From the NCBI RefSeq assembly GCF_001458395.1, contig NZ_CYSR01000011.1, forward strand, positions 62,001 through 126,000: 64,000 bases of DNA, in the 5' to 3' direction. The DNA is from Leisingera aquaemixtae. Lineage in GTDB: Bacteria; Pseudomonadota; Alphaproteobacteria; Rhodobacterales; Rhodobacteraceae. Shown here in pieces: positions 14,188 through 61,025 of this stretch (position 1 is the stretch's first letter; every line of letters starts with the position of its first letter). The notes beneath the pieces were generated by a model. It made no database searches and was not told the DNA's origin. It saw nothing but the letters and a program-made list of their open reading frames with translations. The position numbers and the translations under genes are program-made.

Positions 14188-14269
14188 GGCACGATCCCCT
14201 GCGCAACAGCGGCTCCCGCGCCCGCGTCGGCTCCGGCTTTGCCGGCACCGCCTGGCGGCCTTGGGCCCG

Positions 14270-14369
14270 GCGCCGGGCTGGCGCCCGGCGCGCAACCGCG
14301 TTCTTCCTGCTGTAACAGGGCAATCGGCACGGGACCGCACCGCGCTTCAGCGCGGTGCCCGGCCCAACG
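14270..14369. repeat. Two palindromic intergenic repeats (copies 3 and 4)
   Basis: GCGCCGGGC (14270-14278) pairs with GCCCGGCGC (14283-14291), loop TGGC. GCACCGCGC (14337-14345) pairs with GCGCGGTGC (14350-14358), loop TTCA, followed by GGCCCAACGG (14361-14370). The second has the tail shared with copies at 4183 and 6326. They fill the spacer between convergent lolA and the transglycosylase. Confidence 0.6.
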
Positions 14370-14429
14370 GCTGAGAGGCTTTCGCCAGAAAGCCTCCGAA
14401 GCGGGCGGGAGTGCCCCGCCTGCTGCGCC

Positions 14430-15017
14430 TCAGCGGAATTTGCGGCAGGTGGCGAGCTGCGCCTGGTAGGTCTGGGCGCGGGACTCCACCTGTCCGGCGA
14501 CGCGCATCAGCCAGGACTTGGAGCGGTAGCTGCCGCGGGCATAGCCGTAGTGGCCTTCGTGATAGGCCAGGTACTGGTTGCGCGCGTCATAAAGCGGGAT
14601 GCCGTTTTTCTCGTAGCTCTTGCGCATGTACCAGCCCATGAAATCGGTGGCGTCGCTGATGCGGTCGCGCTTGGCCCGGCGGCGTCCGGTGTCGCGGCGG
14701 TAATCGTCCCAGGTGCCGTCCAGGGCCTGGCTGTAGCCATAGGCGCTGGATTGCCGCCCGACCGGGATCACGCCCAGCAGGAACTGGTGCGGCGTGCGGG
14801 CATCGCCGCGGAAGCGGCTTTCGTGATAGATGGTCGCCATCTGCACATGCACCGGCACGCCCCAGCGGCGCTGGGTGGCGCGGAATGCTTTCAGGTACTC
14901 TGGCCGTTGCTGGATGATGCTGCACGCGTTATCCAGGTTGCGCGGCGGCGCTTTGTGCCCGCCTCCGCATGACGCTACCGCCATCAGGAGAACAAGGGCG
15001 CTCAGGAATCTGCTCAT
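14430..15017 (-). CDS. Lipoprotein lytic transglycosylase-like protein
   Basis: 195-residue predicted outer-membrane lipoprotein: signal MSRFLSALVLLMAVASC with lipobox V-A-S-C. The SLT/lysozyme-like fold is suggested by MATIYHESRFRGDA (catalytic Glu in Y-H-E-S-R-F), AYGYSQALDGTWDDYR, and YLAYHEGHYGYARGSY. It would cleave glycan strands to anhydro-muropeptides during wall growth. Short compared with Slt70 or MltC, typical of a roseobacter lipoprotein SLT group. Convergent with lolA. Confidence 0.85.
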   Translation of the reverse strand: MSRFLSALVLLMAVASCGGGHKAPPRNLDNACSIIQQRPEYLKAFRATQRRWGVPVHVQMATIYHESRFRGDARTPHQFLLGVIPVGRQSSAYGYSQALDGTWDDYRRDTGRRRAKRDRISDATDFMGWYMRKSYEKNGIPLYDARNQYLAYHEGHYGYARGSYRSKSWLMRVAGQVESRAQTYQAQLATCRKFR

Positions 15018-15084
15018 TGCCTCAGCCCATTTTTGTATTGGCTATGTTTTCTGTAAGTCTAGCGGATTGCGGCGGGTGTGAAAA

Positions 15085-41900: not shown

Positions 41901-43025
41901 ATGCCAGACGAAGTGAAGTGGACATTTCCAGGTGCGACCGCTGCAATTCTGCCTTCCCTAAGGACTCTTTGCGGCAACGACGAAGGAAAGCTCAAAACCA
42001 CTGACAACGGGAATGGGTCATTTGACTGCGTTTGCCTAGTACCGGCGACAAACGCTCCGGCAGGAAGTTCATCCACGACAGCCGCTTCAGGAGCGGATTC
42101 TGCTCCAACATCTAGCAGCGCAATTGTTTCCTCCATGATTGCCGCAACAGCCACACCAACAAATTTTGACTACAATGAGCATCTAATCCCTCTGAAATCA
42201 GGGCACTCTATTTCAAAAGGTTGGACCAGTTGGACGGGCCATGAGCCCAAAGGGGTTACATGGCACTGGACAGCTGGAAAAACCATCGAGAGTTGTCGAG
42301 AACTTCTTGGTGGGCCGGACGCCAAGCGGAAAGGCGAAGCCTCTGCGCACTATTGCGTCGGTAGGTCGTATGACGAAGGCGTTGATATCTACGTCGGGTT
42401 AGAGAACCGGTCCTGGCATGCAGGTGTTGAGCAAAAGCTTCGGTGGGATGGCAAAGGTTCGAATAGCCATACTAAAGGATCACGCAGTACAATTGGGGTG
42501 GAAACGGTCAATGTTGGCTATGCGCGCAGCGGTTTCCCCGCAAAGTCGGACTGGATCGAAGTGGCCGATACTAATTGCAAATGGGTCATGAAAGTCCAAC
42601 CTTGGACCGATGAGCAGATGAACATGATGATCGACGTAGGAAAGAGAATTATCGCGCGATGGCCACAAATAAGAGTCCGAGACCATCACGGACATCATGA
42701 CATCTGCCCTGGATATAAATCCGATGTTGGCGGCTTCGATTTCGCGAGACTTTTGCGCGGAATTTACGATGACGACAGCATTTTCGATGTTTGGACACCT
42801 CTCCAAAGCGTAGAGAGCAGACAACGTGCGTTGATTGAACTCGGTTACGACTTAGGAAAGTGGGCCGACGATGGACATTGGGGTGACTATTCGGCAAAGG
42901 CACTCGAGGATTTTCAAAGAGATTCAAACTCCACTGTGATTGGGTATTGGACAACTTTTACAAATTGGGCTGTCTATGATGCTTTCGAAGTGAAAGGCCT
43001 GAGCCTTAGCAATCTCTCAAATTGA
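41901..43025 (+). CDS. N-acetylmuramoyl-L-alanine amidase (Amidase_2) with PG-binding domain
   Basis: 374 residues, zinc amidase that cuts the lactyl-peptide bond of peptidoglycan. Amidase_2/PGRP fold about 80-290: zinc His in GVTWHWTAG, VGLENRSWHAGVEQ, STIGVETVNVGY, and zinc His/Cys region GHHDICPGYKSDVGG. A PG_binding_1 domain follows (about 300-360, SRQRALIELGYDLGKWADDG). The N-terminal about 80 residues are low-complexity (Ser/Ala/Thr) with no Sec signal, so export is by an unseen route, as in phage- or effector-type amidases. TTAGGAGG precedes the ATG. Confidence 0.88.
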   Translation: MPDEVKWTFPGATAAILPSLRTLCGNDEGKLKTTDNGNGSFDCVCLVPATNAPAGSSSTTAASGADSAPTSSSAIVSSMIAATATPTNFDYNEHLIPLKSGHSISKGWTSWTGHEPKGVTWHWTAGKTIESCRELLGGPDAKRKGEASAHYCVGRSYDEGVDIYVGLENRSWHAGVEQKLRWDGKGSNSHTKGSRSTIGVETVNVGYARSGFPAKSDWIEVADTNCKWVMKVQPWTDEQMNMMIDVGKRIIARWPQIRVRDHHGHHDICPGYKSDVGGFDFARLLRGIYDDDSIFDVWTPLQSVESRQRALIELGYDLGKWADDGHWGDYSAKALEDFQRDSNSTVIGYWTTFTNWAVYDAFEVKGLSLSNLSN

Positions 43026-44493: not shown

Positions 44494-45090
44494 CTATCCC
44501 CCTACAATTTCGTCAAAATACAATTTTGAGCGGCGAATGATCTCACGACCGATCAGGAATTTCTTTTCCTTGAGAAGTGCGGCGTCGCTTGGGTTGCTTC
44601 CGAACGCTGGTTCGGTAATTATCGCCGGCGGCCTGCCGGAAACTAGGCTTAACCAGCCTCGTTCTTTGTGCGTTCGGTTACGGACCTTTATTCCTCTCGA
44701 TTGCCCCGAACGACCGAGAAGGCTGCAAAGACCAGAGTGTACTCTCTTCGATAACTCGAGGCTGCGAGCGGAACCCGAACTGAGCGTTTCTGTACCAGAT
44801 GCTGCAGGTGTTGCTGCGTTGTAGTGCAACTCAATTGTCGCTGCACGGGAAGCATCGGTACCAACCCAGTTGTTTACCTGCTTGTAAGCGCCGGAAACAC
44901 CAATCCCGTCGCGAAAGAAAACACGAACTTCAAGCGCGATTTGTCCACCGTGGCTGAATTCAGACTGCGCGAACGCCAGCATGTCTGAAGCAACTGACTT
45001 GTGATAGTCGTATTCCCTTGGAAGATTGAGACCTACAGCGCCACCCGCAGCATCGGTGTGTCCGACGACAATTCCCAGCTTGAAAGTCAT
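44494..45090 (-). CDS. N-acetylmuramoyl-L-alanine amidase (Amidase_3 family)
   Basis: 198-residue zinc amidase domain without signal peptide. Ligands: His in IVVGHTDAAGG, Glu near VFFRDGIGVSG, His in IELHYNAATPAASGTE, and catalytic Glu in IITEPAFGSNPSD. Cleaves peptide side chains from peptidoglycan glycan strands. Signal-less short forms are typical of phage endolysins and of effector-type amidases. It precedes the four-TM protein with a 1-bp gap. Confidence 0.85.
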   Translation of the reverse strand: MTFKLGIVVGHTDAAGGAVGLNLPREYDYHKSVASDMLAFAQSEFSHGGQIALEVRVFFRDGIGVSGAYKQVNNWVGTDASRAATIELHYNAATPAASGTETLSSGSARSLELSKRVHSGLCSLLGRSGQSRGIKVRNRTHKERGWLSLVSGRPPAIITEPAFGSNPSDAALLKEKKFLIGREIIRRSKLYFDEIVGG

Positions 45091-45589: not shown

Positions 45590-45982
45590 GGGTCCGTTGC
45601 ATTAACCATCGAGATGTCAGAGACATCGTTGCCCCAAGCTGAGGAGTGAGCGATGTCCCGGCGCAATCCGTTCAAGCGGCACCGGTTTCCGCGCGAGGTC
45701 ATCCTGCTGGCGGTGCGCTGGTACTGCCGCTACCCGCTTTCGCACCGGGACGTACGGGATATGCTTGCCGAGCGGGGTGTTGCTGTTGATGCCTCGACGG
45801 TTCACCGATGGGTGCGAAAGTTTGGTCCCGAAATCCGGAAGCGGGCCCAAGCCCGGCACCGCTCCTGGCGCGGACTGCAATGGCATGTCGATGAGACCTA
45901 CCTTCGTGTGGGCGGGGGCTGGCGTTACCTTTGGAGGGCCGTGGATCAGTTCGGCCAGCTGATCGATTTCCGCCTGACGGCG
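45590..45982 (+). mobile_element. IS6-family remnant
   Basis: GGGTCCGTTGCATT (45590-45603) resembles the IS6/IS26 terminal repeat G-G-C-A-C-T-G-T-T-G-C-A-A-A. It is followed by the N-terminal transposase fragment; the right end of the element is missing, and the fragment stops against the target duplication of the IS256-type element. Confidence 0.7.
45653..45982 (+). pseudogene. IS6-family transposase, 3'-truncated
   Basis: About 110 residues: FPREVILLAVRWYCRYPLSH, an HTH of VAVDASTVHRWVRKFGPEI, and the first catalytic Asp in WHVDETYLRVGGGWRYLWRA. Normal length is about 230, so the second D and the E of the DDE triad are lost. Similarity ends at D-F-R-L-T-A. Not able to transpose alone. Confidence 0.85.
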
Positions 45983-45990
45983 TTGACACC

Positions 45991-47385
45991 GAGCTATGCC
46001 GGGAAATGGGTGACGGGGTTTGAGAAGGCGGCGTATCGTGGCGGGTGTCAAAGCCTGCCAGAACTTCCAGAAGGAACGATACGCCTATGACGAACAATAC
46101 CGACATCATCGCCCTGCGTCAGCCGGAATCTGTTGACGATCCGCTGACTGAGATTGCCCGGGATGGGGCGCGCCGGATGCTGGCCGCTGCACTTCGGGCA
46201 GAGGCTGACGCCTTCGTCGCTCAGCATGCCGAAGAGGTCCTACCGGATGGCCGGCAGCGTGTCGTCCGGCATGGGTATGGGCCGGAGCGAAGCATCCAGA
46301 CCGGGATCGGCGCGCTTGATGTGCGCCGCCCGAAGGTGCGAGACCGCGCGGCCGGACCTGCTGACGAGAAGGTGCGGTTCAGCTCCGCCATTCTGCCGAA
46401 ATGGGCGCGGCGGTCGCGCAGCCTCGATGCCCTGCTGCCAGTCCTCTACCTGCGCGGCATTTCCACCGGCGACTTCCGGGAGGCGCTCTCTGCGATCTTG
46501 GGGGCGGAGGCGCCAAACCTGTCGCCGGGCGTGATTTCGCGCCTGACCGGGGAATGGCAGCAGGAACATGACCGCTGGCAGCGCCGTGATCTTTCGGCGC
46601 GGCGGTATGTCTACATCTGGGCGGACGGCGTCTACCTCCAGGCCCGGATGGAGCCGCAGGCCGAGTGCATGCTGGTCATTCTGGGCGCCACGCCCGAAGG
46701 GAAGAAGGAACTGGTCGGCTTCCAGGTCGGCGTTCGGGAAAGCGCGCAGAGTTGGCGCGAGTTGCTGGTCGACATCAAAGCCCGCGGGCTTGCCGTCCCG
46801 CCGGAGGTCGCCGTGGGAGACGGGGCCATGGGGTTCTGGAAGGCGCTCGACGAGGTCTTCCCCGGCACGCGTCATCAGCGCTGTTGGGTCCACAAGATCG
46901 CCAACGTGCTGAACAAGTTCCCGAAATCGATGCAGCCGACGGTGAAGGCCGACCTGCGCGAGATATGGCAGGCCGAGACCCGCGCTAAGGCCAAGGCCGC
47001 CATGGACATCTTCGCCGAGAAATATGGGATTAAATACGAGAAGGCGGTAACCTGCCTGACAAAAGACCGCGACGCACTGCTGGCGTTCTACGACTTCCCG
47101 GCCGACCATTGGGATCACCTGCGCACGGGCAACCCAATCGAAAGCGTCTTCGCCACCGTCCGGCACAGGACCGTCCGCACCAAGGGGTCGCTGTCGCAAA
47201 CGACAGTGAAGCTGATGGTGTTCAAGCTCGTTCAGACCGCCGCCAAAACATGGCGCCGCCTGAAGGGCGCGAACCGGTTGCCAATGGTCATCGAAGGCGT
47301 CAAATTCACCGACGGTGTCGCCGCCAGCGGCGCCGAAAACCGCGCCGCTTGATCAGGCTGCGTCACCCAAGTTCCAGCATAGCTC
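45991..47385 (+). mobile_element. IS256-family insertion sequence with 8-bp target duplication
   Basis: Imperfect terminal repeats begin GAGCTATGCCGG (45991) and, on the opposite strand at 47385, GAGCTATGCTGG; about 21 of 25 bases match. TTGACACC flanks both ends (45983-45990 and 47386-47393) as an 8-bp target duplication, the size expected for IS256. It inserted at the end of an IS6 fragment. Confidence 0.85.
46087..47352 (+). CDS. IS256-family transposase
   Basis: 421-residue mutator-type DDE transposase. First Asp in YIWADGVYLQARME, second Asp in VGDGAMGFWKALDE followed by RHQRCWVHKIANVLNKFP, and Glu in TGNPIESVFATVRHRT. Full length and uninterrupted. AAGGAACG precedes the ATG at 46087; earlier in-frame codons to 46045 lie in the terminal region. 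Confidence 0.93.
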   Translation: MTNNTDIIALRQPESVDDPLTEIARDGARRMLAAALRAEADAFVAQHAEEVLPDGRQRVVRHGYGPERSIQTGIGALDVRRPKVRDRAAGPADEKVRFSSAILPKWARRSRSLDALLPVLYLRGISTGDFREALSAILGAEAPNLSPGVISRLTGEWQQEHDRWQRRDLSARRYVYIWADGVYLQARMEPQAECMLVILGATPEGKKELVGFQVGVRESAQSWRELLVDIKARGLAVPPEVAVGDGAMGFWKALDEVFPGTRHQRCWVHKIANVLNKFPKSMQPTVKADLREIWQAETRAKAKAAMDIFAEKYGIKYEKAVTCLTKDRDALLAFYDFPADHWDHLRTGNPIESVFATVRHRTVRTKGSLSQTTVKLMVFKLVQTAAKTWRRLKGANRLPMVIEGVKFTDGVAASGAENRAA

Positions 47386-47861: not shown

Positions 47862-48248
47862 TTGAATAAACTAATCGAGGAAGGACCCCTCTATGGTGTT
47901 GGCTTTCTCCTTCTAATGTTTCTTATCGTTGGGCATTTTCTGATCTGGGACGAATTCTTCTTCGATGACGTATCGTTACGCCGAAAAATCTTCATGCTCG
48001 GCGCAAGCGCAATCCTAGGAGCGGTGGCACTGTTTCCTCTGGGGGGTATCGGCGGCTCAATTCTTGGTTTTTTTTTGGTGCCGCTGGTGGTGATACCCAT
48101 TTTGATAGGCGCGACTCTCGTGATTGGCATTTGGGTAGCTTCAGTTCCTAGTGAGGTTTGGGTACTGATCGGCTTCGGAATTTTGGCAATCATTGCGATT
48201 TTCGTGATTGTAATACTTGCATTACTATTTTGGAAAGTTGGCCTATGA
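47862..48248 (+). CDS. Small four-TM membrane protein, unknown function
   Basis: 128 residues from a TTG start, almost all hydrophobic: TM segments about 11-29, 44-62, 68-90 and 97-125 (FGILAIIAIFVIVILALLFW). The stretch DEFFFDDVSLRRKIFM is the only long polar loop. No family recognised. The start is uncertain and the ribosome-binding site is weak. Low GC, as elsewhere in the island. Confidence 0.5.
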   Translation: MNKLIEEGPLYGVGFLLLMFLIVGHFLIWDEFFFDDVSLRRKIFMLGASAILGAVALFPLGGIGGSILGFFLVPLVVIPILIGATLVIGIWVASVPSEVWVLIGFGILAIIAIFVIVILALLFWKVGL

Positions 48249-49204: not shown

Positions 49205-52200
49205 ATGACAGCGACGCTTTACGGCCTTCTTGTAGGGATCGATGAATACAAGTCACCGGTTCCGGCACTGAAAGGATGCGTGAACGATATCGATGCCGTC
49301 GCAGCGCTCCTGCGTGAGTTTGGCGCCGAGGGCGACTTTGCCCTTGAGCTCAAGCTTCTAAAGGACGCCGAGGCGACACGTGAAGCGATCATTGATGGCT
49401 TTCGCAACCATCTCGGGAAGGCAGGCCCTGAAGATATCGTGCTCTTTTGCTACAGTGGCCATGGCTCCCAGGAAAAAGCACCACCCGAGTTTTGGCACCT
49501 GGAACCGGACCGCCTGAATGAGACCCTGGTCTGCTATGACAGCCGCGACGAAGGTCAGTGGGATCTTGCCGACAAGGAGCTCTCGGCGCTAATCGCCGAC
49601 GTTGCCGCCAGCGGGCCGCATGTGTTGTGCATCCTGGATTGCTGTCACTCCGGCAGCGGCACCCGCGCGCCGTTGGAGGAGGGGGCCGCGGTGCGCCGAG
49701 CCCCCACCGACCTGCGTCATCGGCCTGTGGACGCGTTTCTCGATGGTGCATTGGTGAATAACCTGGATCGGAGTGGCGGAACGCCTGGCGCGGGCTGGGG
49801 GGTGGTGCCGGCCGGAAAGCATCTGCTCCTCGCCGCTTGCCGCTCGAACGAGACCGCGAAGGAAGTCTATGAAGCCGGGAGACCGCACGGCGCCTTCACT
49901 GCGGCTCTGCTCGCGGCTCTGCGGCAAACCCGGGGGGCTATCAGCTACAGGGACCTTCTCAAGCGGGCCGAAGCTCAGGTGCGGCTGCGTGTGGCGCAGC
50001 AGGTGCCACAGGCCGAGGCGAGTGACCCGAACGATTTGCAGCGGACGTTCCTCGGCGGCGCAATTCGCCAACAGCGACCGCACTTTACGCTTCGGTACGA
50101 CCCGAAATTGGGGTGGGTGATTGATGGCGGTTCCGTTCATGGAATCCCCCCGCGCACGGGAGATGAAACGACCGTGCTGTTGGTATTCGATCTTCAGGCG
50201 AAGCCCGACACGTGGCGCGAACCGGAAGCGGCGCTGGCGACCGCCGACGTAGACGAGGTCCGGCCGTCGCTCAGCCGAGTCAGACTGCAAACCCGCAACG
50301 TGCCGCTTGACCAGAACTCGACCTACCGCGCTGTTGTGGTCGCAACGCCATTGCCCGCGCTCGGTGTCCAATTGATTGGCGAGCCCGGCGCCCTGGACCG
50401 GGTGCGAAAAGCCCTCGCGACATCCGGCCCGGATGGTAGGCAATCAACTTTTGTTCGCGAGGTTGGGCCTGAGAACGAGGCGGAGTTTCGCCTGAAGGCG
50501 CGAGACGGAACATTCCTCATCAGTCGGGCACAAGCCGAACGGCCACTCGTTGCTGAGATTGCAGGTGTGGGTAAGGAGGGCGCGCGGGCAGCGGTCCAGC
50601 GGCTGGAGCACGTCGCCCGGTGGAAGGCGCTGGCTGGGCTGGAGAACCCGGGGAGCCGACTTGGTGTCGATCCGGTCGAGATCGCGATCCTGCAACCTGC
50701 CTATGAGTCGGGCAAGGAGGTTTGGCGAGACACCGACCCGCGGCAGGCCATTCGCCTGGAGTACCGCTTCAGCAGCGGAAATTGGGAGCAACCAAAAGTT
50801 CGGATAGAGCTCAGGAATGGCAGTCAGCACGAAGTCTACTGCGCTCTCCTTTGGCTTGGCGAAGATTTCTCGGTGAGTTCCGCCCTGATCCCAGGCGGCA
50901 CTCTGCACCTGCCTGCGCGGGGATCCGCTGCGGTGAATGGCGGTGAACCTGTCTGGGGCTTTGTGCCAGAAGACAAATGGCGCGAGGGCCGAACAGAGGT
51001 GCGCGATGTGCTGAAGCTGATCGTCAGCACGGAACCGTTCGATGCGACGCTGTTCGAGCAGGAGGAGATAGAGCGTTACGCGCTGACCCGAGACGCCAAA
51101 GCTGCGGCTCTGCCGCGAAGCGCTCTCGAAAGGCTGGCTGCGCGATTGCATTTTCGAGGCCTGTCCCCAACGAAAGGCGGCGAAAGCGCGCCTGACTGGG
51201 GAACCGCCGAGTTGACGCTCACAGTCGTACGGCCCCTTGAGGCGGCTGAGGTGCCACGGGCAGATCAGCAACAGGACCTCGGTGCGGGCGTAACATTATT
51301 GGGTCACCCCAAGCTTTCTGCCAAGGCGCGACTGGTTTCCACAACGGAGGCGGGCCGTGGTCTTGGTGAACTGGGGCTTCCGGCGATCCTTCGCGATGCG
51401 CCGGACGTGTCAGAGGCGTTTTTGTTTGAGGCCCCGCGGGGCACAGACCCAGGCCTGGGCGCCCTTCAACTAATCGATGTCGAAAACCCTGAGACAGTAA
51501 GCGCCGACTCACCGCTGCTTTTGCGTGTGCAGTCGCAGCTACGTCCTGGCGAGCACGTCCTTCCGTTCGCTTGGGACGGTGAGTTCTTTCTGCCACTTGG
51601 TGCGGCTCGGCAGATCGACGGCGGCATGGAGATCGAATTGCGGCAGTTGCCGGAACCTAGTCAGACCGGTGCTGACGTTGAGCGCGGCATCGTCAGTTCG
51701 GTCAGGATTCTGTTCCAAAAGATCCTGAGTTCGAAACTCGGAACAGAGTTCGACTACCCGCGCTTGGCAGCGGTCAGCTTCGATGCGGAAGGGAAACCGA
51801 GCTACGACGCGACAGGGGATCTCGTTCGAGAGAGAGTCGCGAGTTCGGAACGGATCCTGCTATACGTTCATGGTATTCTAGGCGACACGCTTGGGATGAC
51901 CTCCGCATCGCGGACCGAGATAATGGTCTCGAGCGGACCCCCGCAGCGGATAGGGGATTTATACGACCTCGTTCTCGCGTTCGATTACGAGAACATCAAC
52001 ACCGGGATACGAGAGACCGCAAGGGCACTTGGGGACCGGCTTGTATCTGTCGGACTCGGGGCGGCCCACGGAAAGACGCTCCACGTGGCAGCACACTCAA
52101 TGGGCGGGCTGGTCGCCAGATGGTTCATTGAGCGCGAAGGCGGCGACAAGGTCGTTCAGCACTTGGTCACGCTCGGTACGCCGCACGCAGGCTCGCCATG

Positions 52201-52714
52201 GCCGACAATCCAGGGTTGGGCCACGACTGCGCTCGCAGTAGGCCTCAATGGTTTTTCGCAAGTTGCATGGCCAGTGCGCCTTCTCGGCGATCTTGTCGGT
52301 GCGGTCGAAGCAGTAGACGTGACTCTCGACGAAATGGCACCAGGATCGGACTTTTTGACAGAACTTGGGCGAAATTCCGATCCGAATGTGCCTTATTCTC
52401 TGTTGGTCGGGAACACGTCAGTCATTCCTGCAGCTGTGGAAACCGGGATACTGAGCAGCTTGTTGGCAAAGCTGTCGCCGCAACGTGTGTTGCATGCGGC
52501 AACTGCGCTCGCATTCCTGAAAGCGCCCAACGACATCGCAGTGAGTGTCGCAAGTGCAAAGGCCGTGCCGGAAGGGCGCGCGCTCGTACCGCAGGTGCAG
52601 GAGGCCGCTTGCGATCACATTAGTTTCTTTAGTTCCAACTCTGGGCAGAGATGCCTGTTGGAGGTTCTGCAGGGAGTGGGGGAAACTGGTCCAAACGACG
52701 ATGCGCAAAGTTGA
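49205..52714 (+). CDS. Caspase-domain protein fused to a C-terminal alpha/beta-hydrolase
   Basis: 1169 residues. Peptidase C14 caspase fold about 1-310: LLVGIDEYKSPVPALKGCVN, His86 in FCYSGHGSQ and Cys147 in LDCCHSGSG, so both catalytic residues are present. The middle about 310-870 is beta-rich with no clear domain. The C-terminal hydrolase about 870-1140 has oxyanion motif LLYVHGILGD (His889), nucleophile Ser965 in AAHSMGGLVARW, LVTLGTPHAGS, and a candidate catalytic His1138 in CDHISFF, the pattern of lipases and palmitoyl-esterases. No TM or signal peptide. The ATG at 49205 follows GGGGGAG. The next gene starts 14 bp before its stop. Inferred effector of a death or immunity operon; substrate unknown. 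Confidence 0.87.
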   Translation: MTATLYGLLVGIDEYKSPVPALKGCVNDIDAVAALLREFGAEGDFALELKLLKDAEATREAIIDGFRNHLGKAGPEDIVLFCYSGHGSQEKAPPEFWHLEPDRLNETLVCYDSRDEGQWDLADKELSALIADVAASGPHVLCILDCCHSGSGTRAPLEEGAAVRRAPTDLRHRPVDAFLDGALVNNLDRSGGTPGAGWGVVPAGKHLLLAACRSNETAKEVYEAGRPHGAFTAALLAALRQTRGAISYRDLLKRAEAQVRLRVAQQVPQAEASDPNDLQRTFLGGAIRQQRPHFTLRYDPKLGWVIDGGSVHGIPPRTGDETTVLLVFDLQAKPDTWREPEAALATADVDEVRPSLSRVRLQTRNVPLDQNSTYRAVVVATPLPALGVQLIGEPGALDRVRKALATSGPDGRQSTFVREVGPENEAEFRLKARDGTFLISRAQAERPLVAEIAGVGKEGARAAVQRLEHVARWKALAGLENPGSRLGVDPVEIAILQPAYESGKEVWRDTDPRQAIRLEYRFSSGNWEQPKVRIELRNGSQHEVYCALLWLGEDFSVSSALIPGGTLHLPARGSAAVNGGEPVWGFVPEDKWREGRTEVRDVLKLIVSTEPFDATLFEQEEIERYALTRDAKAAALPRSALERLAARLHFRGLSPTKGGESAPDWGTAELTLTVVRPLEAAEVPRADQQQDLGAGVTLLGHPKLSAKARLVSTTEAGRGLGELGLPAILRDAPDVSEAFLFEAPRGTDPGLGALQLIDVENPETVSADSPLLLRVQSQLRPGEHVLPFAWDGEFFLPLGAARQIDGGMEIELRQLPEPSQTGADVERGIVSSVRILFQKILSSKLGTEFDYPRLAAVSFDAEGKPSYDATGDLVRERVASSERILLYVHGILGDTLGMTSASRTEIMVSSGPPQRIGDLYDLVLAFDYENINTGIRETARALGDRLVSVGLGAAHGKTLHVAAHSMGGLVARWFIEREGGDKVVQHLVTLGTPHAGSPWPTIQGWATTALAVGLNGFSQVAWPVRLLGDLVGAVEAVDVTLDEMAPGSDFLTELGRNSDPNVPYSLLVGNTSVIPAAVETGILSSLLAKLSPQRVLHAATALAFLKAPNDIAVSVASAKAVPEGRALVPQVQEAACDHISFFSSNSGQRCLLEVLQGVGETGPNDDAQS

Positions 52715-55700
52715 GGTTTTCCCATTGGACGAGTTTGCACATAGCCACGCCGTTTTGATTGGCATCGACCGATACGAATATGTTCGGCCGCTTGTAACGC
52801 CCGTGTCAGATGCGACGGCCCTTGCGGGTATCTTGGCGCAACAGCACGGTTTTGAAGCGCGGGTCGTTCCGGAGGATGCCGCAACACTTGTCGGTTTGCG
52901 GGATGTTTTGTCAGAGCTTTCAAAACGAGTGGGGCCAAACGACCGCGTCCTTTTCTACTTTGCCGGTCACGGGATCGCACTCCAAAGCGATGACGGGCCA
53001 AAGGGGTACATTCTTCCGCAGGACGCCAGCCCTACCGACGAATCAACATTTCTTGGGATGGTCGAGCTTCAGGAGGCGTTGGAGGCGCTGCCCTGCAGAC
53101 ACATGCTTGTCGTTCTCGACTGCTGCTTCGCCGGGGCGATGCGCTGGGCGAGCTACCGCGATCTGGCTATAGCGTCTGCGTCACTGCATGAGAGGCGGTA
53201 CCGCTGGTATATCGAAGGCGATGCATGGCAGGCAATTGCGTCGGCAGCCCACAACGAAAAGGCTCTCGATGTGGTCGCGGGTAACGCGATCGGCGAGCGG
53301 GCGGAGGAAGTCGGTCGTCATTCTCCTTTTGCGCAGGCGCTGATCGATGGGCTGCAAGGCGCTGCCGACTACACCAATGATGGTGTCATCACTACAACTG
53401 AATTGCACGTTTTTCTGGAAGACCGCCTTCGTCAACAGAAGAGCGCCAACGATCGCCCACAGACCCCGCATTCGTGGTTGCTGAAGAAGCACGGCAGAGG
53501 TCAGTTCGTGTTCTTGGCCCCGGGTCGGGAGCTCGACTTGCAGCCGGCGCCAGAGCTCAATTCCGACACGAACCCATGGCGCGGCCTGGAGCCCTACGAG
53601 GCGAAGCACCGGGACCTGTTCTTTGGCAGGGATCAGGCCGTTCAAGCACTGGCGAGCCTCGTGTTGGGGAAAGACGAAAGCGGGAGTGATCGAGAGGGGT
53701 CTCTTCGGCCATTCGTAGTGGTTACCGGTCCGTCGGGGATCGGCAAATCAAGCCTAGTGCGGGCTGGCCTGCTTCCGAAAATTCCCGAGGAGACCAAGAC
53801 CGCCATAATGCGGCCCGGGAAGGACCCGTTCGAGAGCTTGTTACTCGCGCTGCGCGGCAATAAAATGGAGGCGGGCGTCCGCGACGCTGACGCTGAACGA
53901 TGCCCTGCGTTACAGCGCTGGTGGGCCAGCGGCGAATTGGCTCGCCGACATCAAGTATTCCGAGATCCCGAGGTGGGGGACACGCACGGCTATGGGCAGC
54001 GTATGGGCCATTGGTTGGCCCGCTATGACGGAGGAGGTCGCCTTCTTCTTGTCATTGACCAAGCCGAAGAGCTGTTCACGATGAGCGATCGTTCCAAGGC
54101 CGATGCATTTATTGGCATGCTCGCCTCCGCGCTGGACAAGGCGGACGACCGGCTGCAAGTCATTGTAACGTTGCGCTCAGAGTTCGAACCGCAATTCGTG
54201 GATTCGACTTTGCGGTCTCGCTGGCAGGACGCGCGATACATCGTCCCGCAGATGACTCAAGACGAGCTGCGTCGTGTGATCGAGCTGCCGGCGTCGGCCA
54301 AGGTGATGCGCTTCGAGACAGACACGCTCATCGACCAGCTCATCAATGAAGTGGTCAACATGCCCGGCGGGCTGCCGCTGCTCTCATTCGCACTCAGCGA
54401 GATTTACAAAAAGTACCTGGAGCGCGATGACGAAGATCGGACCCTGACATGGGCAGACTACAAGGCGCTCAAGGGCGGCGTAGTTGGATCGCTTCGCGTT
54501 CGCGCGGACCTGATCGTGGAAAGCTTCGATCCGGTTGTGCGACTAACAATGCAGCGGGTGGCAGAGCGACTCATAGCGGTGGAATCGAGCGAGTTCGCGC
54601 GTCGGCGCGTGCCGCGGCTCGAGCTTGAGATGGCGGACCCTGCCGAGAATATTCGCGTCCAAACAGTCATAAGGCAGCTCTTGGCAGCTCGGCTCATCGT
54701 TACGGATGAAATCGGTGGCGAGGCGTATGTGGAGTTCGCGCACGATGCGTTAATCACGAGTTGGCCGCAGCTGCTGGTCTGGGTGAGAAACGACCTCGAA
54801 AACATCATTGTGCTGCGTCGGCTCACTGCGAGCGCCAAGCAATGGGCCGAGCCCGACGAGGCGGGACGCGGCACACTTTGGGTCGATGCGGCGCGTCAGG
54901 AGCAGATTGAGGCGCTTGAGAAGGCTTCAACGCCGGGATTGAACAAGAAAGAACGAAGATTCGCTGAAGCAAGCCAACGTCGAGCCCAGAGAAACCGGCG
55001 TTTCAGGACAGCAGTGGGAGCGTCGCTGGTCGCACTGACAATCATCGCGGTGATCGGGGGCGTCGCAGCTTTAATCGCGCGAGAGGAGGCCGTCGCTCAA
55101 CGCGACGTTGCGTGGAGCAACGAATCGCGTTTTCTGACTGGCGCTGCAGAAGCGCGGACAGCCATTGGCCAAGCCTCAAAGGCGCTTGGCTTTTCGCTGG
55201 CCGCACTGCCGAACGCAGAGGTTCCCGACAGACCGGTTCTGCAAGTCGCGGTCAATTCCCTGTATCGCGCCTGGACCGAACAGCGGGAGATTGCAATTTT
55301 CCGTGGTCACAGCCTGCCGATCGATGGGGCAATGCCTCTGCCTGGCGGCAGGCTATTGACCTGGAGCCGGGACCGCACCGCCATCTTGTGGGATGAGAGC
55401 GGCGCGATCCGGCATGTGCTTGACGGCTCGCCACATGGAATCGGCGATGCGGTGGAGCTTCCAAGCGGACATATCGTCACTTGGGCTGGGGGCTGGGCTG
55501 GTGACGAGGATCGGACCGGGCGGCTTTGGTCTGACTCAGGCGAATTTATTGCCGTCCTTGACCGACATACCTATCTCATCAGCGATGTTGCCTCGGTTAA
55601 TGACTCCGAATTCATAACCGTTAGCAGCGATGGTTCCGTACAATACTGGTCGGTTGATGGAACTCAGGGCGCGAGGCTTCAGAGCGACAGCCAAGGACGA

Positions 55701-57683
55701 ATCAAAGCGGTGCAATTGCTTGATGGGCGTTGGTTCACTTGGGGCAATGATCAGCCCGGTGTCTTCCATCCGGCAGGGTATGATCTCACACACGTCTTAG
55801 AACAGTACTACCCGACAGGGCAAAATGGCTTCGTCGCAATTTCTAAGCGCCGGTTCATAGCGTGGCGGAGCGCACCGGTGACCGTGCGTGCAAACGACGA
55901 CGGATCGACGATCAATATAGAGGCGGCCCAGGTTTGGTCTTCTGACGGCACTTTTGTGGCCGAGCTTCCGGGCCATCGCGGCCGGATCGGAGGTGCCTTA
56001 GAGTTGAGTTCAGGCTTGATCGCAACATGGGAATCTGGATCCGTAGGGCCCCAGAATGTCCTGCTATGGCAGTCCGACGGTACCAAAATCGCGGACTTGC
56101 CGCATGAGGGCGGCCTCGTAGCCGTTTTGGAGTGGCCGGGAAACGGGCTTGTCACAGTTTCTGGCCAAGCTCGCCTTTGGTCGCCACTCGGGCAAGTGTT
56201 GCGGGACTTTGATGGTCACAGCGCCACTGTCGAGGGCGCGTTGGTACTTAGCGATGGGCGGCTTGTCACCTGGAGCGAGCGGGAAATCCTTGTGTGGCGA
56301 GCTTTCGACTGGGTCGCACCGCTGCGCATTGTCGCAGGTGACGATGACATCCACGGAGTCCAGGCGTTTGGCAGCAGCACGCTGTTGACATGGAGCGGCG
56401 ATAGGACGGCCCGTCTCATTGGTGTCGATGGTTTGCCAGGAGCAAGCCTGGCTGGCCATTGCATCCCTGACCAGTATCTGGGCAACGAGCTCACCTGCGG
56501 CGTGATCCAAGTGCAGGTGCTCGACGATGCACGGATTCTCAGCGGGAGCCTTGATGGCACGGTAAAACTTTGGGACGCCACCGTTCTGGAGGAGCGGCTC
56601 ACTGTCCGGCATGGTGGGCTTCTCAACGGAGTTGCTGTCTTGGAAAACGGTCGAATTGCGACATACGGCAAGGATGGCGCGGTTGTCGTGTGGACATATC
56701 GAGGCGAATTAATTAAGAGGTTCCGCAGCGCCTTTGGCCAAGTCCTGTCGGTATCCGAGCTTTCAGGTGGTCAGTTGCTGGCTCGGCATTCTGGCGGCGT
56801 GGTAGTGATTTGGCCTTGGGATGGCGGCGCACCCACAATCATTGACAATGCGCGAAATGCGCGCGTGCTATCTGACGATCGTCTGGTTACTTGGGACCAC
56901 GATGCTTGGCTGACTGTCCATCGTTGGGACGGGTCAGGTTACACTTCTGCCTCGATGGCACCCCATGCCGATCGTATTCAGTCTGTCGATGATCTGCGCG
57001 ATGATGGCCTATTACTTTCCTACTCTGATCGCGTCGTGAGAATCTGGGGCGAAGCTTTTGAGCACAACAAGACTCTGCAATGGGGCCAACACCGGCAAAC
57101 TTATGTCCTGCCATCGCAGCCGGATCGCATGGTCGTTTGGGATGGCGCGGGCGTGGCCGAGTTGCGCTCGGTGACTGGCAAGCTCATTATCTCTTTCGAC
57201 GCTTGTTCCGATAACACCACTCGCTTTGTGCAAGAGATCAGCGACGGGCGGATCGTCTTTGCAAACGCGGCTGGGACAGTATTCGTATGTGATCCGATGA
57301 CGGGTGCCGCGCTCAAGATCAAGGGGCAGATCTCCCGGCTGTCGGGTGCGCGGCTTCTCAGCGACGGCCGACTGTTGACGTGGGGCGAAAGACCGTTTGT
57401 CGAAATGTGGGAGTCGGATAAGAACGGGCACCTTGTGACCGTGTTGAACGGTCACACAGTGCCGGTGGGAGGTGTGGGCCATGTAACCGGTGCGCTTGAA
57501 GTCGGCGACCAAATAGTGACCTGGTCCGACGCAGACCCGGTGATCCGGATTTGGCCCCGCGGCCTGGAGGGATTGATCGACGCCGCCGGAGCGGTCGTGA
57601 CTCGCTTGAGACCAATCCAAGAGGATGAATGCCGGGCTTTTGCGCTGTCAACCCCTTCCGGATGTGGTTCGGTCGATCCATAA
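52701..57683 (+). CDS. Caspase-STAND NTPase-TM-WD-repeat protein
   Basis: 1660 residues. Caspase domain about 10-250 (AVLIGIDRYEYVRPLVTPVS, His90 in FYFAGHG, Cys142 in LDCCFAG). STAND/nSTAND1 NTPase about 290-720: NPWRGLEPYEAKHRDLFFGR, Walker A GPSGIGKSS (Lys349), and Walker B LLLVIDQAEELF (Asp453). A basic helix then a TM at about 770-793 (SLVALTIIAVIGGVAALIA). About 18 WD-like repeats from about 855 to the end, many reading G-R-L-L-T-W-S-x-D then W. This is the layout of inflammasome-like sensors: ligand-binding propeller, switch ATPase and protease. The ATG at 52701 overlaps the upstream gene by 14 bp. Ligand and protease targets unknown. Confidence 0.9.
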   Translation: MRKVEVFPLDEFAHSHAVLIGIDRYEYVRPLVTPVSDATALAGILAQQHGFEARVVPEDAATLVGLRDVLSELSKRVGPNDRVLFYFAGHGIALQSDDGPKGYILPQDASPTDESTFLGMVELQEALEALPCRHMLVVLDCCFAGAMRWASYRDLAIASASLHERRYRWYIEGDAWQAIASAAHNEKALDVVAGNAIGERAEEVGRHSPFAQALIDGLQGAADYTNDGVITTTELHVFLEDRLRQQKSANDRPQTPHSWLLKKHGRGQFVFLAPGRELDLQPAPELNSDTNPWRGLEPYEAKHRDLFFGRDQAVQALASLVLGKDESGSDREGSLRPFVVVTGPSGIGKSSLVRAGLLPKIPEETKTAIMRPGKDPFESLLLALRGNKMEAGVRDADAERCPALQRWWASGELARRHQVFRDPEVGDTHGYGQRMGHWLARYDGGGRLLLVIDQAEELFTMSDRSKADAFIGMLASALDKADDRLQVIVTLRSEFEPQFVDSTLRSRWQDARYIVPQMTQDELRRVIELPASAKVMRFETDTLIDQLINEVVNMPGGLPLLSFALSEIYKKYLERDDEDRTLTWADYKALKGGVVGSLRVRADLIVESFDPVVRLTMQRVAERLIAVESSEFARRRVPRLELEMADPAENIRVQTVIRQLLAARLIVTDEIGGEAYVEFAHDALITSWPQLLVWVRNDLENIIVLRRLTASAKQWAEPDEAGRGTLWVDAARQEQIEALEKASTPGLNKKERRFAEASQRRAQRNRRFRTAVGASLVALTIIAVIGGVAALIAREEAVAQRDVAWSNESRFLTGAAEARTAIGQASKALGFSLAALPNAEVPDRPVLQVAVNSLYRAWTEQREIAIFRGHSLPIDGAMPLPGGRLLTWSRDRTAILWDESGAIRHVLDGSPHGIGDAVELPSGHIVTWAGGWAGDEDRTGRLWSDSGEFIAVLDRHTYLISDVASVNDSEFITVSSDGSVQYWSVDGTQGARLQSDSQGRIKAVQLLDGRWFTWGNDQPGVFHPAGYDLTHVLEQYYPTGQNGFVAISKRRFIAWRSAPVTVRANDDGSTINIEAAQVWSSDGTFVAELPGHRGRIGGALELSSGLIATWESGSVGPQNVLLWQSDGTKIADLPHEGGLVAVLEWPGNGLVTVSGQARLWSPLGQVLRDFDGHSATVEGALVLSDGRLVTWSEREILVWRAFDWVAPLRIVAGDDDIHGVQAFGSSTLLTWSGDRTARLIGVDGLPGASLAGHCIPDQYLGNELTCGVIQVQVLDDARILSGSLDGTVKLWDATVLEERLTVRHGGLLNGVAVLENGRIATYGKDGAVVVWTYRGELIKRFRSAFGQVLSVSELSGGQLLARHSGGVVVIWPWDGGAPTIIDNARNARVLSDDRLVTWDHDAWLTVHRWDGSGYTSASMAPHADRIQSVDDLRDDGLLLSYSDRVVRIWGEAFEHNKTLQWGQHRQTYVLPSQPDRMVVWDGAGVAELRSVTGKLIISFDACSDNTTRFVQEISDGRIVFANAAGTVFVCDPMTGAALKIKGQISRLSGARLLSDGRLLTWGERPFVEMWESDKNGHLVTVLNGHTVPVGGVGHVTGALEVGDQIVTWSDADPVIRIWPRGLEGLIDAAGAVVTRLRPIQEDECRAFALSTPSGCGSVDP

Positions 57684-58150: not shown

Positions 58151-58702
58151 ATGACAGGGGAGAGATCGACCCCGCTTCGAGAGCGGATGATCGAGGACAT
58201 GCGCATCCGCGGGATGGGCGACAAGGCGCAGAAAGCGCATATCCGGGCGGTCAAGGATTTCGCCATTTTCCTCGGGCACCCGCCGGATACCGCCTCACCG
58301 GAGGAACTCCGCGCCTATCAATTGCACATGACGGATACAGTGGTAACGCCGGCGACTTTCAACGCCCGGATCGTGGCGCTCAGATTCTTCTTCGGCATGA
58401 CCTGCGGGCGCGAGGAGATGAAGCGCTACATGCAGTTCCGCACCCAGCCCAGGAGGTTGCCTGTAGTCTTTAGCGTTGAAGAGGTATCGGACATCCTGAT
58501 GGCGGCGCCGGGGCCCGGGCTCAAATACCGGGCCGCGCTCAGCATTTCCTACGGCGCGGGGCTGCGGGCCGCCGAGGTCTGCAACCTCAAGATCGGCGAT
58601 ATCGACAGCGACCGGATGCTGATCCATGTCGAACAGGGCAAAGGGCGGAAGGACCGGAAGGTGATGCTGTCACCCGGGCTTCTGAGCTTGCTGCGCGACT
58701 AC
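58151..58702 (+). pseudogene. Tyrosine recombinase, truncated
   Basis: Starts TPLRERMIEDMRIRGMGDKA with the SAM-like core-binding domain (residues about 10-95) and enters the catalytic domain: the first catalytic Arg in SYGAGLRAAEVCNLKIGD and Lys in QGKGRKDRKVMLSP. Similarity ends near L-L-R-D-Y (about 58702), so the H-x-x-R, H/W and Tyr nucleophile are missing. The same frame runs on to 58924 through unrelated sequence. The element-type integrase resembles those found beside IS91-like elements in Rhodobacteraceae (from memory). Confidence 0.82.
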
Positions 58703-58787
58703 GGCATCGCAAGTGTCGAACCGATTGCGCTAGAGCCACCATTCAGATTACCTGTCTCTCGACTGCACAGAGTTTTGGACGGTTTCT

Positions 58788-59762
58788 TTGGAAGTTTCAG
58801 AAGAACATTTCGATGCGGAACGCATCGCGTTTCTTGCCCTCAGTGCCATCAAGGGGGTTGGTTTCGAGACACTGCGGCGAATCTCCTCATCGGAGAAGTC
58901 TTTTCAAAGTGTGATCGAACTTGAGGACGCTGACGAAGTGCGCAGCCTATTGGGGCGATCTGAACTACAAGGAAACGATGACGGAGGTCAGGCTTGGCGC
59001 GAAACCCGCAACCGAGCACTGGATAGTGCGAAACGCAGGTGTCAGGAGTTGGCTCTGGCTAACGTCTCGATTATTTTTCAGGGCGAAAAAAATTTCCCTT
59101 CACAACTGAACGACCTTAGCAACACCCCTCATTGGCTATTTGTTCAGGGGCAAGTCGATGTCCTGTCGCGGCGTTCCATCACAGTAGTTGGATCACGGAA
59201 AGCGTCACAGGATGGTGTGTGGCTTACTCGATATGTCGGGCATTGCCTGTCAGAGTTCGGCGCTCCAACTGTGAGTGGCTTGGCCGATGGTATTGATCAA
59301 GAAATTCATTCTGCCAGCATCCAGGCTGGCGTTCCTACAATTGCGTTTCTAGGAACGGGCATTTTCACTGAGTATCCGAAAGGTTCAGATAGGCTGAGGC
59401 GCACAATTCTGGACAATGGTGGTGCAATCGCGACTGAGTACCTGATCAAGGAAGGATACAGCGCTGCAAACTTTGTGCGTCGAAATAGACTTCAAGCCGC
59501 ATTGGGTAGCCTTCTCATTCCGACAGAATGGGCCGTCAAAAGCGGCACTGCGCACACGGTGCGATACGCGCATGAACTCTCGCGCCCTATTGCATTTCTA
59601 AGAACTCCAGCGCAACCAGACCTCAGCTGGGTGCCTCGCGAATACGTGCCACAGAATGGCTTTTTCACCATCCCCACTGAGCAGGACGGATTTGTTGATT
59701 TTGTGTTTCGTCATTTGAACTCTGAACCAAGATCAAAGACCACTCAGCTCACGCTGTTGTAA
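58788..59762 (+). CDS. DprA/Smf-like SLOG-domain protein
   Basis: 324 residues. The N-terminal HhH-like stretch FLALSAIKGVGFETLRRISS is followed by a Rossmann SLOG core about 120-290: ITVVGSRKASQDG, VSGLADGIDQEIHSAS, IAFLGTGIFTEYP and FVRRNRLQAALGS, all DprA landmarks. The C-terminal winged helix of true DprA is absent. Start TTG at 58788 is weakly supported; an in-frame stop at 58731 bounds it. It lies 9 bp before a HAD-PRTase gene. Either a RecA-loading DNA-processing protein or, more likely in this setting, a SLOG nucleotide-signal sensor. Confidence 0.82.
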   Translation: MEVSEEHFDAERIAFLALSAIKGVGFETLRRISSSEKSFQSVIELEDADEVRSLLGRSELQGNDDGGQAWRETRNRALDSAKRRCQELALANVSIIFQGEKNFPSQLNDLSNTPHWLFVQGQVDVLSRRSITVVGSRKASQDGVWLTRYVGHCLSEFGAPTVSGLADGIDQEIHSASIQAGVPTIAFLGTGIFTEYPKGSDRLRRTILDNGGAIATEYLIKEGYSAANFVRRNRLQAALGSLLIPTEWAVKSGTAHTVRYAHELSRPIAFLRTPAQPDLSWVPREYVPQNGFFTIPTEQDGFVDFVFRHLNSEPRSKTTQLTLL

Positions 59763-59771
59763 GGAGCAGTT

Positions 59772-61025
59772 ATGCACACTCTACGTGGCGCAATTTTTTC
59801 TCTCAGGAACGTATTGGTCAAGGAAGGCCAGTTGGATCAAGCTAAGGCTTTGGAAACAATCAGGCTGATAAAATACTTGATCTCTGTTGGTGTGCAGCCC
59901 GTATTGGTCAGCAATTCAACGTGGACGATGGTGGGCAGTAACGAGCCATTCAATGATTACTTTTCCCGGCTGGTAGGCCAACAACTGCCCTATTATCAAG
60001 GTGGAACAGACATGGCGTACAAACAGTATGCCGCCGCTATGCAGCACGTGTTAGAAGACCAAGGTTGGCAGCCTCAGGAAGTCGTCTACATCGGAAATAC
60101 TCAGGATGACATTCAAGCGGCATCGAATGGTGGGCTACTATTCTTGAACGCAAAATGGCATGAGGCGAATAGCCCGTTTGGCTTTGAATTCAACTCACCA
60201 AAAGACATTGCGAAATTTGTCGACTGCTGTTGTTTAACACCGAAAGACTGGTTCTGGAGCATTGAGCAAGGAAACTTACGGGTCTACACCATCGCTCCGC
60301 TAGGTGAGTTTTCCAAAGCTTATCCGCACGCTGCAACCTACTCGACAGACGCAAAGAACGCCGTGAAATTTGGCGTGGGAGACTTAAGGTTTTGGGGCCT
60401 TCTGATGGCTGCGAGAATGCACCTATCCGGCATTGGAGCAGAGGCATCATATGTAGCCCCGTACCCTGGCCACAAAACGACTTCTGAAAAGGCTGAACTT
60501 TTGCAAGCCGTAAGAATTGCCTCAGGCTCATTGCGAGCCCGGTACTTGGAAGACTACATTGTCAGACACCAAGATGCACCCAAGTCGCAGGCCCTTAGGA
60601 ATAGCGGCCAGCAACCGTCAGCTCATAATCAACTGGCAACGATCCACCTCAGAACGGACCCGCTCAAAACTGGCGAGGTCGGTGGGCGCTACAAGAATCG
60701 CCCCAACGTCAAAGGTAAGACCTTGCTGATGGTGGACGATATTTGTACGCAGGGTCATTCACTTGAAACGGCCAGAGCGTTTGCCGAGGCGGCGGGTGCC
60801 AATGTCATCTGCTTATGCTGGCTCAAGACACCGGGCCCAAACGACTACCATGAAATCGTTAGCCTCACTCCAAGCATCAAACGGCCCTATTCAAAGTACG
60901 TGCCAGAAAGCCAAGCAACGGCTATTCATTCAAATTCCGGCAACGTTATCAATCACAACGCAGCAACGGAGATTGCCGACGCCTTCACACGCTTCAATGG
61001 GTGGGACTGGCCTCAAGGCGTGTGA
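59772..61025 (+). CDS. Degenerate HAD domain fused to phosphoribosyltransferase
   Basis: 417 residues. N-terminal HAD-like part about 1-150: motif I is A-I-F-S-L-R-N-V-L, where active HADs have D-x-D, so the nucleophile and acid are replaced; motif II PVLVSNST and motif IV VVYIGNTQDDIQAASNGG are recognisable. C-terminal PRTase about 190-400 with PRPP loop LLMVDDICTQGHSLETAR. It probably binds or transfers a phosphoribosyl group on a nucleotide-like ligand. AAGGAGCAG precedes the ATG. Paired with the SLOG protein; converges with the next gene by 13 bp. Confidence 0.78.
   Translation: MHTLRGAIFSLRNVLVKEGQLDQAKALETIRLIKYLISVGVQPVLVSNSTWTMVGSNEPFNDYFSRLVGQQLPYYQGGTDMAYKQYAAAMQHVLEDQGWQPQEVVYIGNTQDDIQAASNGGLLFLNAKWHEANSPFGFEFNSPKDIAKFVDCCCLTPKDWFWSIEQGNLRVYTIAPLGEFSKAYPHAATYSTDAKNAVKFGVGDLRFWGLLMAARMHLSGIGAEASYVAPYPGHKTTSEKAELLQAVRIASGSLRARYLEDYIVRHQDAPKSQALRNSGQQPSAHNQLATIHLRTDPLKTGEVGGRYKNRPNVKGKTLLMVDDICTQGHSLETARAFAEAAGANVICLCWLKTPGPNDYHEIVSLTPSIKRPYSKYVPESQATAIHSNSGNVINHNAATEIADAFTRFNGWDWPQGV

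Follow-up and report, generated by a model that had tools for sequence, protein, structure and literature searches.

In the ternary systems built on a MoxR-vWA module (VMAP), two caspases accompany an alpha/beta-hydrolase, and proteolytic release of effectors against invaders has been predicted (Kaur et al., 2020, PMC7159879). In the canu system, a caspase activates a pro-enzyme of the same locus, an MBL-fold nuclease, and gives phage defence (PMC12799240). Proteins that join a metacaspase to NACHT and WD40 domains are widely distributed, and 20 operons with multiple metacaspases have been described (Asplund-Samuelsson et al., 2012, PMC3501461). EACC1/EACC2 are two-gene caspase systems in which EACC1 sits at the membrane, with a variable C-terminal module that may be a STAND or a periplasmic-binding domain (PMC7159879, PMC8195603). 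These descriptions follow the portions of the papers drawn upon here.

The locus analysed here lies in a window of 64,000 nucleotides (the whole stretch of DNA under analysis) from Leisingera aquaemixtae and consists of two genes, A and B. Like the VMAP systems, it holds two caspases and an alpha/beta-hydrolase in one gene set, and metacaspase-NACHT-WD40 proteins share the overall architecture of B, to the extent that the same portions of those papers describe them.

Results

Domain architecture of the two caspase genes

Gene A (49205..52714, plus strand, 1169 aa; delimited by its ORF, Pfam and an alignment with 30 relatives) and gene B (52701..57683, plus strand, 1660 aa; ORF, Pfam) are adjacent on the same strand and overlap by 14 bp, both frames being open throughout, as an earlier note on this DNA had reported. 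That note had also placed a caspase dyad in each product, and both pairs of residues proved to be positioned exactly and near-invariant in relatives. In A, the metacaspase-like caspase domain covers residues 8-274 (49226..50026; Pfam Peptidase_C14, E 1.6e-19), with the catalytic H86 (49460-49462) and C147 (49643-49645) each conserved in 31/31 sequences (window and 30 relatives). A profile built from 17 A sequences matched metacaspase chains of the PDB over profile positions 5-284 and lipases over about 911-1033, and a structure search with an AlphaFold model of A (mean pLDDT 71.5, pTM 0.47) returned metacaspase, MALT1 and lipase structures. The Pfam score above the cut-off, the invariant dyad, and the PDB profile and fold matches thus place A in Peptidase C14 (caspase/metacaspase).

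In metacaspases, two acidic residues of the S1 pocket set the specificity for a basic P1 residue. D28 and D145 of A, both conserved, align with acidic (Asp) residues of T. brucei metacaspase 2 (MCA2). The p20/p10 linker (residues 148-202, 49646..49810) carries conserved basic residues (R173 in 31/31, R164 in 30/31) and is mostly of low confidence in the AlphaFold model, which may merely mirror the 17-row alignment. Conservation and model confidence make it a candidate activation-cleavage loop, if a weak one, because conserved residues occur in the other low-confidence stretches of A as well.

The middle region of A (residues ~280-870, 50042..51814) is conserved within the family and matched no Pfam family. 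It is followed by a hydrolase domain (51845..52654) identified from Pfam, PDB lipases and conservation, whose Pfam match is DUF7379/PGAP1-like (residues 885-1007); no open-licence publication on DUF7379 was found. The catalytic triad was assigned by motif and conservation to Ser965 (52097-52099), Asp1110 (52532-52534) and His1138 (52616-52618), which are kept in 20/21, 20/20 and 19/19 of the relatives that reach the domain, with Ser965 replaced by Gly in L048. By fold and Ser-Asp-His triad, the C-terminal part of A is a lipase-like alpha/beta-hydrolase with a putative lipid substrate.

The product of gene B begins with a second caspase domain (residues 16-250, 52746..53450; Pfam Peptidase_C14, E 3.2e-16), which is followed by an nSTAND1 ATPase (residues 292-718, 53574..54854; Pfam, E 3.2e-92, 310 bits), a transmembrane helix detected by hydropathy (residues 774-792, 55020..55076) and WD40-type repeats (residues ~865-1640, 55293..57620; Pfam and repeat HMM) that form the predicted sensor. 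Membership in Peptidase C14 follows from the Pfam score above the cut-off and from H90 (52968-52970) and C142 (53124-53126), each conserved in 17/17 sequences of an alignment of the window protein with 17 relatives (n = 18), where D37 and D140 are conserved too. The nucleotide-binding motifs are intact (G346xGKS in 17/17, D453Q/E456E457 in 18/18), which identifies B as a STAND NTPase of the nSTAND1 type. A search of the PDB with a B profile gave no match at 1e-5. The hydrolase of A and the ATPase, membrane helix and WD repeats of B had all been named in the earlier note, and Pfam and hydropathy agree with it. Its estimate of an about 18-blade propeller held for the WD40-type repeats and is a tentative figure for the number of blades: the repeat HMM gave 16 matches between residues 882 and 1636, nine above 25 bits and seven weak, in a partly circular search that was seeded with nine of B's own repeats and left gaps that could hide more, and the single-sequence AlphaFold model of the propeller (pLDDT 40.5) was not used.

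Among relatives, WD40 repeats are present in all ten B C-termini of one set and in 5/6 of another. The B sensor of L099 combines WD40 repeats with a Peripla_BP_6 domain, and that of the fusion protein L096 is Peripla_BP_6 alone; this family is usually found outside the cytoplasm. Most of the caspase domain is missing from the B of L038. In Nostoc sp. ATCC 53789 (L120, 12150-16741), B is annotated as two genes, one of the caspase family and one with WD40 repeats, and the nSTAND match spans both.

A transmembrane helix was predicted in 22/23 B proteins (none in L033). An excess of basic residues marks the cytoplasmic side of such a helix; six of the 15 residues preceding the helix of the window's B are basic, and basic residues are more numerous before than after it in 19/22 proteins, the counts being equal in L032 and L105 and reversed in L099. 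This flank charge favours a topology in which the caspase and STAND domains would lie on the inner side of the membrane and the sensor outside. The receptor B is thus probably membrane-anchored, and its sensor may reach across to the other side of the membrane. The comparison with inflammasomes made in the earlier note fits in the order of parts (sensor, STAND switch, protease, second caspase) and departs from them in this probable anchoring and possible placement of the sensor across the membrane.

Genomic context in the window

The pair lies, as that note had it, in an island rich in insertion sequences. The G+C content is ~0.62-0.68 and drops to 0.50-0.62 after 36 kb, two IS-type transposase genes (45653-46087 and 46045-47349) lie upstream of A, and an integrase-type ORF of 257 aa (58151-58921) lies directly downstream of the pair. 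PADLOC also recognised genes of the ShosTA defence-system type directly downstream (58788-61025), namely a ShosA-like gene of the DprA family (58788..59762, plus strand; PADLOC E 1.6e-81, Pfam DNA_processg_A) and a ShosT-like phosphoribosyltransferase gene (59772..61025, plus strand; PADLOC E 3.4e-65). The ORF at 47862-48245 matched no Pfam family at E 0.01, and a tRNA search of the window returned none. Peptidoglycan-binding or wall-hydrolase genes are present at 41901-43022 and 44497-45090.

Full-length B was found in 0/20 other genomes of the same genus. The A family occurs in 1/398 genomes of the window's phylum, which is the window's own genome; in a search of 292 genomes of the order, 46 matched, and among the matches listed the own genome's was the only full-length one, the rest covering part of the caspase or hydrolase. 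On these counts, a housekeeping role of A in the host group was rejected. Both A and B are accessory in the window's genome.

Against plasmids, A matched seven records at 1e-50. The nearest A (L117, 70% identity) is on a conjugative Rhizobium plasmid, where B is missing and a divergent CHAT gene alone is present. For the island DNA, 0/92 plasmid records reach 80% coverage of the query, and the best 8 of the 92 matches are to an IS256-type transposase. The left part of the window matched 193 plasmid records, mostly of Sinorhizobium, Rhizobium, Pseudosulfitobacter and Paracoccus, with best places 60-90% identical.

Distribution of A and its association with B

In a species-level genome collection, A was found at 31 loci, of which 27 are cyanobacterial, two belong to Caldilineaceae, one to Pseudarthrobacter and one to Methylomonas. 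It was present in 7/244 genomes drawn from the phylum of Nostoc and in 2/201 drawn from that of Caldilineaceae. After removal of duplicates, 47 A loci were retained (31 from the collection, 6 + 2 + 2 from genome draws, five from plasmid records, and the window), six of which end within 1.3 kb, too early to be judged (L027, L028, L029, L041, L044, L116). At 22 of the 41 judged loci, B lies no more than 0.8 kb downstream of A and in the same orientation (window, L021-L024, L026, L031, L032, L033, L035, L037, L038, L039, L043, L050, L051, L094, L099, L100, L103, L105, L120). The two are arranged otherwise at three more, being fused in one (L096, the same locus as L122), two genes apart in L098, and with B 3.2 kb upstream in L042; the remaining 16 have A without B. 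Between A and B, ORFs of at least 80 aa were absent from six of eight loci checked, L021 having two on the opposite strand and L033 one on the same strand. The pair of L094 is degenerate. Chance adjacency of two abundant families was rejected, strong B matches numbering 1 to 3 per genome (7 of 8 A-bearing genomes have any) against adjacency at 22/41 loci.

Individual loci show possible insertions. A transposase-like ORF, identified by eye, interrupts A in Methylomonas fluvii (L050, 12528-13562), where the frame of B stays uninterrupted as far as the contig end. In L098 (4771-6433), A and B are separated by an AAA_21 ATPase gene together with a small gene, possibly an inserted module. In L034, an opposite-strand ORF that by eye is IS200/IS605 TnpB-like (13783-15078) begins 5 bp after A, at the place expected for B.

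The lipase is missing from a short A in five A-B loci (L038, L043, L100, L105, L120) and is a broken remnant in L035, so it cannot be the essential output. The constant core of the module is therefore the caspase pair, with the lipase optional.

The distances of A and B are correlated (Mantel r 0.94 for 21 pairs, L038, L094 and L120 being left out, and 0.84 for the 17 that remain at 80% identity), a correlation obtainable from shared species history alone. In a quick tree of A (39 rows, many of its deep forks unresolved), B partners stand on deep (window, L105, L033) as well as shallow branches, with 7 changes of partner state. The Methylomonas A (L050) is nested within the cyanobacterial sequences beside L032 (identity 78% for A, 69% for B), a position that fits joint transfer of the two genes.

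Approached from B, the 244 genomes drawn evenly from the Nostoc phylum contained A in seven, B in five and both in four (Fisher p 1.2e-6, or 3.4e-5 once the seed genome is left out), in a test biased by a B profile that was built from B genes beside A. In eight A-bearing genomes, A lies within 1.5 kb of 7/12 strong B matches vs 0/17 weaker nSTAND matches, a control that leaves out L084, a fragment of the L067 gene, and one match that had no locus. Queries with B gave 19 loci, including L060, which lies at the edge of a contig. Of the 18 judged, 12 have A upstream, fused or two genes off, three have a different caspase gene directly upstream (L042, L115, L123) and three have neither upstream (L102, L104 and the first B of L026, where A is downstream), proportions biased by the part of these loci that came from genomes chosen for holding A, the 244-genome draw being the better measure. 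The non-A caspase genes before B (L042, 126-1745; L115, 5327-7453; L123, 3698-5830) show a more general pattern of a caspase followed by a caspase-STAND gene.

The fusion in L096 is a single frame of 3057 aa in which A occupies residues 1-1155 and the caspase of B ~1219-1468; its nSTAND part has long inserts and two copies of the C-terminal portion, and a transmembrane helix and Peripla_BP_6 follow. The annotation treats it as a single protein (WP_104910174.1), encoded on pNLP1, a complete conjugative plasmid from a lichen Nostoc. This in-frame joining of genes that are otherwise adjacent, though a single case, is strong evidence for joint function. The co-occurrence across unrelated genomes that the earlier note had proposed to check was borne out, the pair being present in Cyanobacteriota, Chloroflexota and Pseudomonadota. 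The A-B partnership is well supported, and because the pair co-occurs elsewhere and a natural fusion exists, a functional one is very likely.

Other neighbours of A

Among the 16 loci at which A lacks B, ten have a gene for CHAT, a caspase-clan protease, near A. It is directly behind A on the same strand in L030, L036 and L119, the third gene of a conserved cyanobacterial four-gene cluster in L040, L045, L048 and L049, and in another orientation in L046, L047 and L117; L101 resembles the four-gene cluster, with its last gene cut. Neither B nor CHAT was found beside A in L025, L034, L114, L118 and L121; in L118 a different caspase gene lies two genes upstream of A, and L121 is GC-rich and hardly annotated. 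The loci with CHAT suggest that it is an exchangeable caspase-clan partner of A.

Two Komarekiella genomes encode a caspase-DEAD-box helicase fusion near A (L046, 15107-18343, with Pfam run on this copy; L047, 14585-17821). Peptidoglycan-binding or wall-hydrolase genes lie near A or B in L025 (230-1165), L026 (1035-3113), L030 (7704-9947), L099 (634-2241), L115 (7606-8508) and L117 (7712-9112). Their recurrence, counted without a background rate, would fit cell lysis as the outcome.

Proposed mechanism and alternative explanations

Taken together, we consider it somewhat better than an even bet that A and B form a two-protein caspase cascade that kills the cell or arrests its growth, an accessory module of the defence type that is partly plasmid-borne. 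The WD40 sensor of the membrane-anchored B would meet a trigger (in two relatives, through a periplasmic-binding-protein sensor also or alone), upon which the nSTAND1 ATPase would oligomerise and the clustered N-terminal caspases of B would become active as initiator. The B caspase would then cleave A, probably in the basic loop of its caspase domain, and A would act as executioner, cleaving additional proteins and, in the forms that carry the lipase domain, freeing or unblocking a lipase that may attack the inner membrane. Here we infer the trigger, the oligomerisation, the topology, the order of cleavage, the arginine/lysine specificity, the membrane attack and the anti-phage purpose. A fuller version is tentative, and we put it well short of even: B would act as a bacterial death receptor that spans the inner membrane, its sensor facing outward and its STAND and caspase domains inward, and would activate the executioner A, often with a membrane-attacking lipase, and A would be an exchangeable client, elsewhere driven by CHAT or fused to its receptor, the whole being spread on conjugative plasmids.

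The cascade could be the same and its purpose another, namely programmed death or lysis upon stress or plasmid loss in place of phage defence, which we find rather unlikely. The cyanobacterial origin of 27 of the 31 A loci in the collection and the occurrence of A and B on plasmids are consistent with it, and so are the Peripla_BP_6 domains of two relatives, which suggest a small-molecule ligand, and the peptidoglycan-active genes near A in L025, L026, L030 and L117, with homologues in L099 and L115. Cell-death roles of prokaryotic caspase homologues are moreover discussed in the portion of PMC3501461 drawn upon. Nevertheless, the window pair directly adjoins ShosTA-type genes, and the patchy distribution is typical of defence genes.

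A reversed or regulatory order, in which the caspase of A cleaves B for release or shut-off and the caspase of B is the effector, appears improbable. It would account for the non-A caspase genes that also directly precede B (L042, L115, L123), since the upstream caspase may regulate B generally, and for a B dyad conserved as well as that of A, whereas the extra lipase is on A and not on B, and the presence of A with CHAT proteases where B is missing agrees with A being a client whose partners can be exchanged. Least credible, and by a wide measure improbable, is that A is a lipid-handling or protein-processing enzyme whose pairing with B reflects shared plasmid or island mobility and no joint action: the 16/41 judged loci with A and no B and the presence of both families on plasmids would agree with this, but the in-frame fusion, the same-strand A-then-B order in all 22 adjacent loci, the adjacency in three phyla and, among those 16 loci, the ten near a CHAT gene and the one (L118) near another caspase gene argue against it.

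Discussion

The earlier note knew this pairing as no named system, and that much stands: in PADLOC (2023 library), A and B match only the generic 'caspase' model, and a named defence system, Avs included, was accordingly rejected. No description of a STAND-switched caspase/caspase-lipase pair or fusion was found in the open-licence literature. Its ingredients are less new, caspase-NACHT-WD40 proteins and sets of caspases with an alpha/beta-hydrolase being already in print, as the portions of the sources drawn upon attest.

If the proposed two-protein cascade is true, receptor, switch, initiator and executioner of a two-tier bacterial caspase cascade would be encoded in two adjacent genes, and the question whether apoptosis-like caspase cascades predate animals would be testable with two proteins. 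The fusion and the occurrence of A with B or CHAT would make A a starting point in the search for more caspase-clan immune modules. Gasdermin is a known client activated by caspases. The lipase would add a membrane-attacking client to those known, such as the nuclease reported in the portion of the canu paper drawn upon (PMC12799240).

Compared with the described systems, and within what the cited portions of those papers cover, the A-B pair differs in its switch and in its client. The switch of VMAP is MoxR-vWA and its hydrolase a neighbouring gene, whereas A-B is switched by nSTAND1 with a transmembrane helix and WD40 repeats and has its hydrolase in one protein with the second caspase; membership was rejected, no MoxR or vWA domain being found in A, B or ten window neighbours scanned. 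The client of canu is an MBL-fold nuclease, whereas A-B would have as its client a second caspase, in most cases joined to a lipase, and as its initiator a STAND receptor; an MBL domain was absent from the same ten neighbours, and canu was rejected as well. Relative to the metacaspase-NACHT-WD40 proteins, a conserved caspase-lipase partner and a fusion with it are features absent from the account in PMC3501461, as far as its portion drawn upon goes. EACC1/EACC2 and A-B are both two-gene caspase systems, but the 5' gene of A-B is itself a caspase and no EACC1 was found: the caspase_w_EACC1 model scores 47.9 for A and 79.9 for B against a cut-off of 140, and 47862-48245 had no Pfam family, so that this assignment was rejected too. 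Finally, the pair resembles the Apaf-1 apoptosome, as described in the portion of PMC7159879 drawn upon, in combining a WD40 sensor, a STAND ATPase and a caspase cascade, and differs from it in that B has a caspase in cis and a transmembrane helix, and that A is a caspase-lipase.
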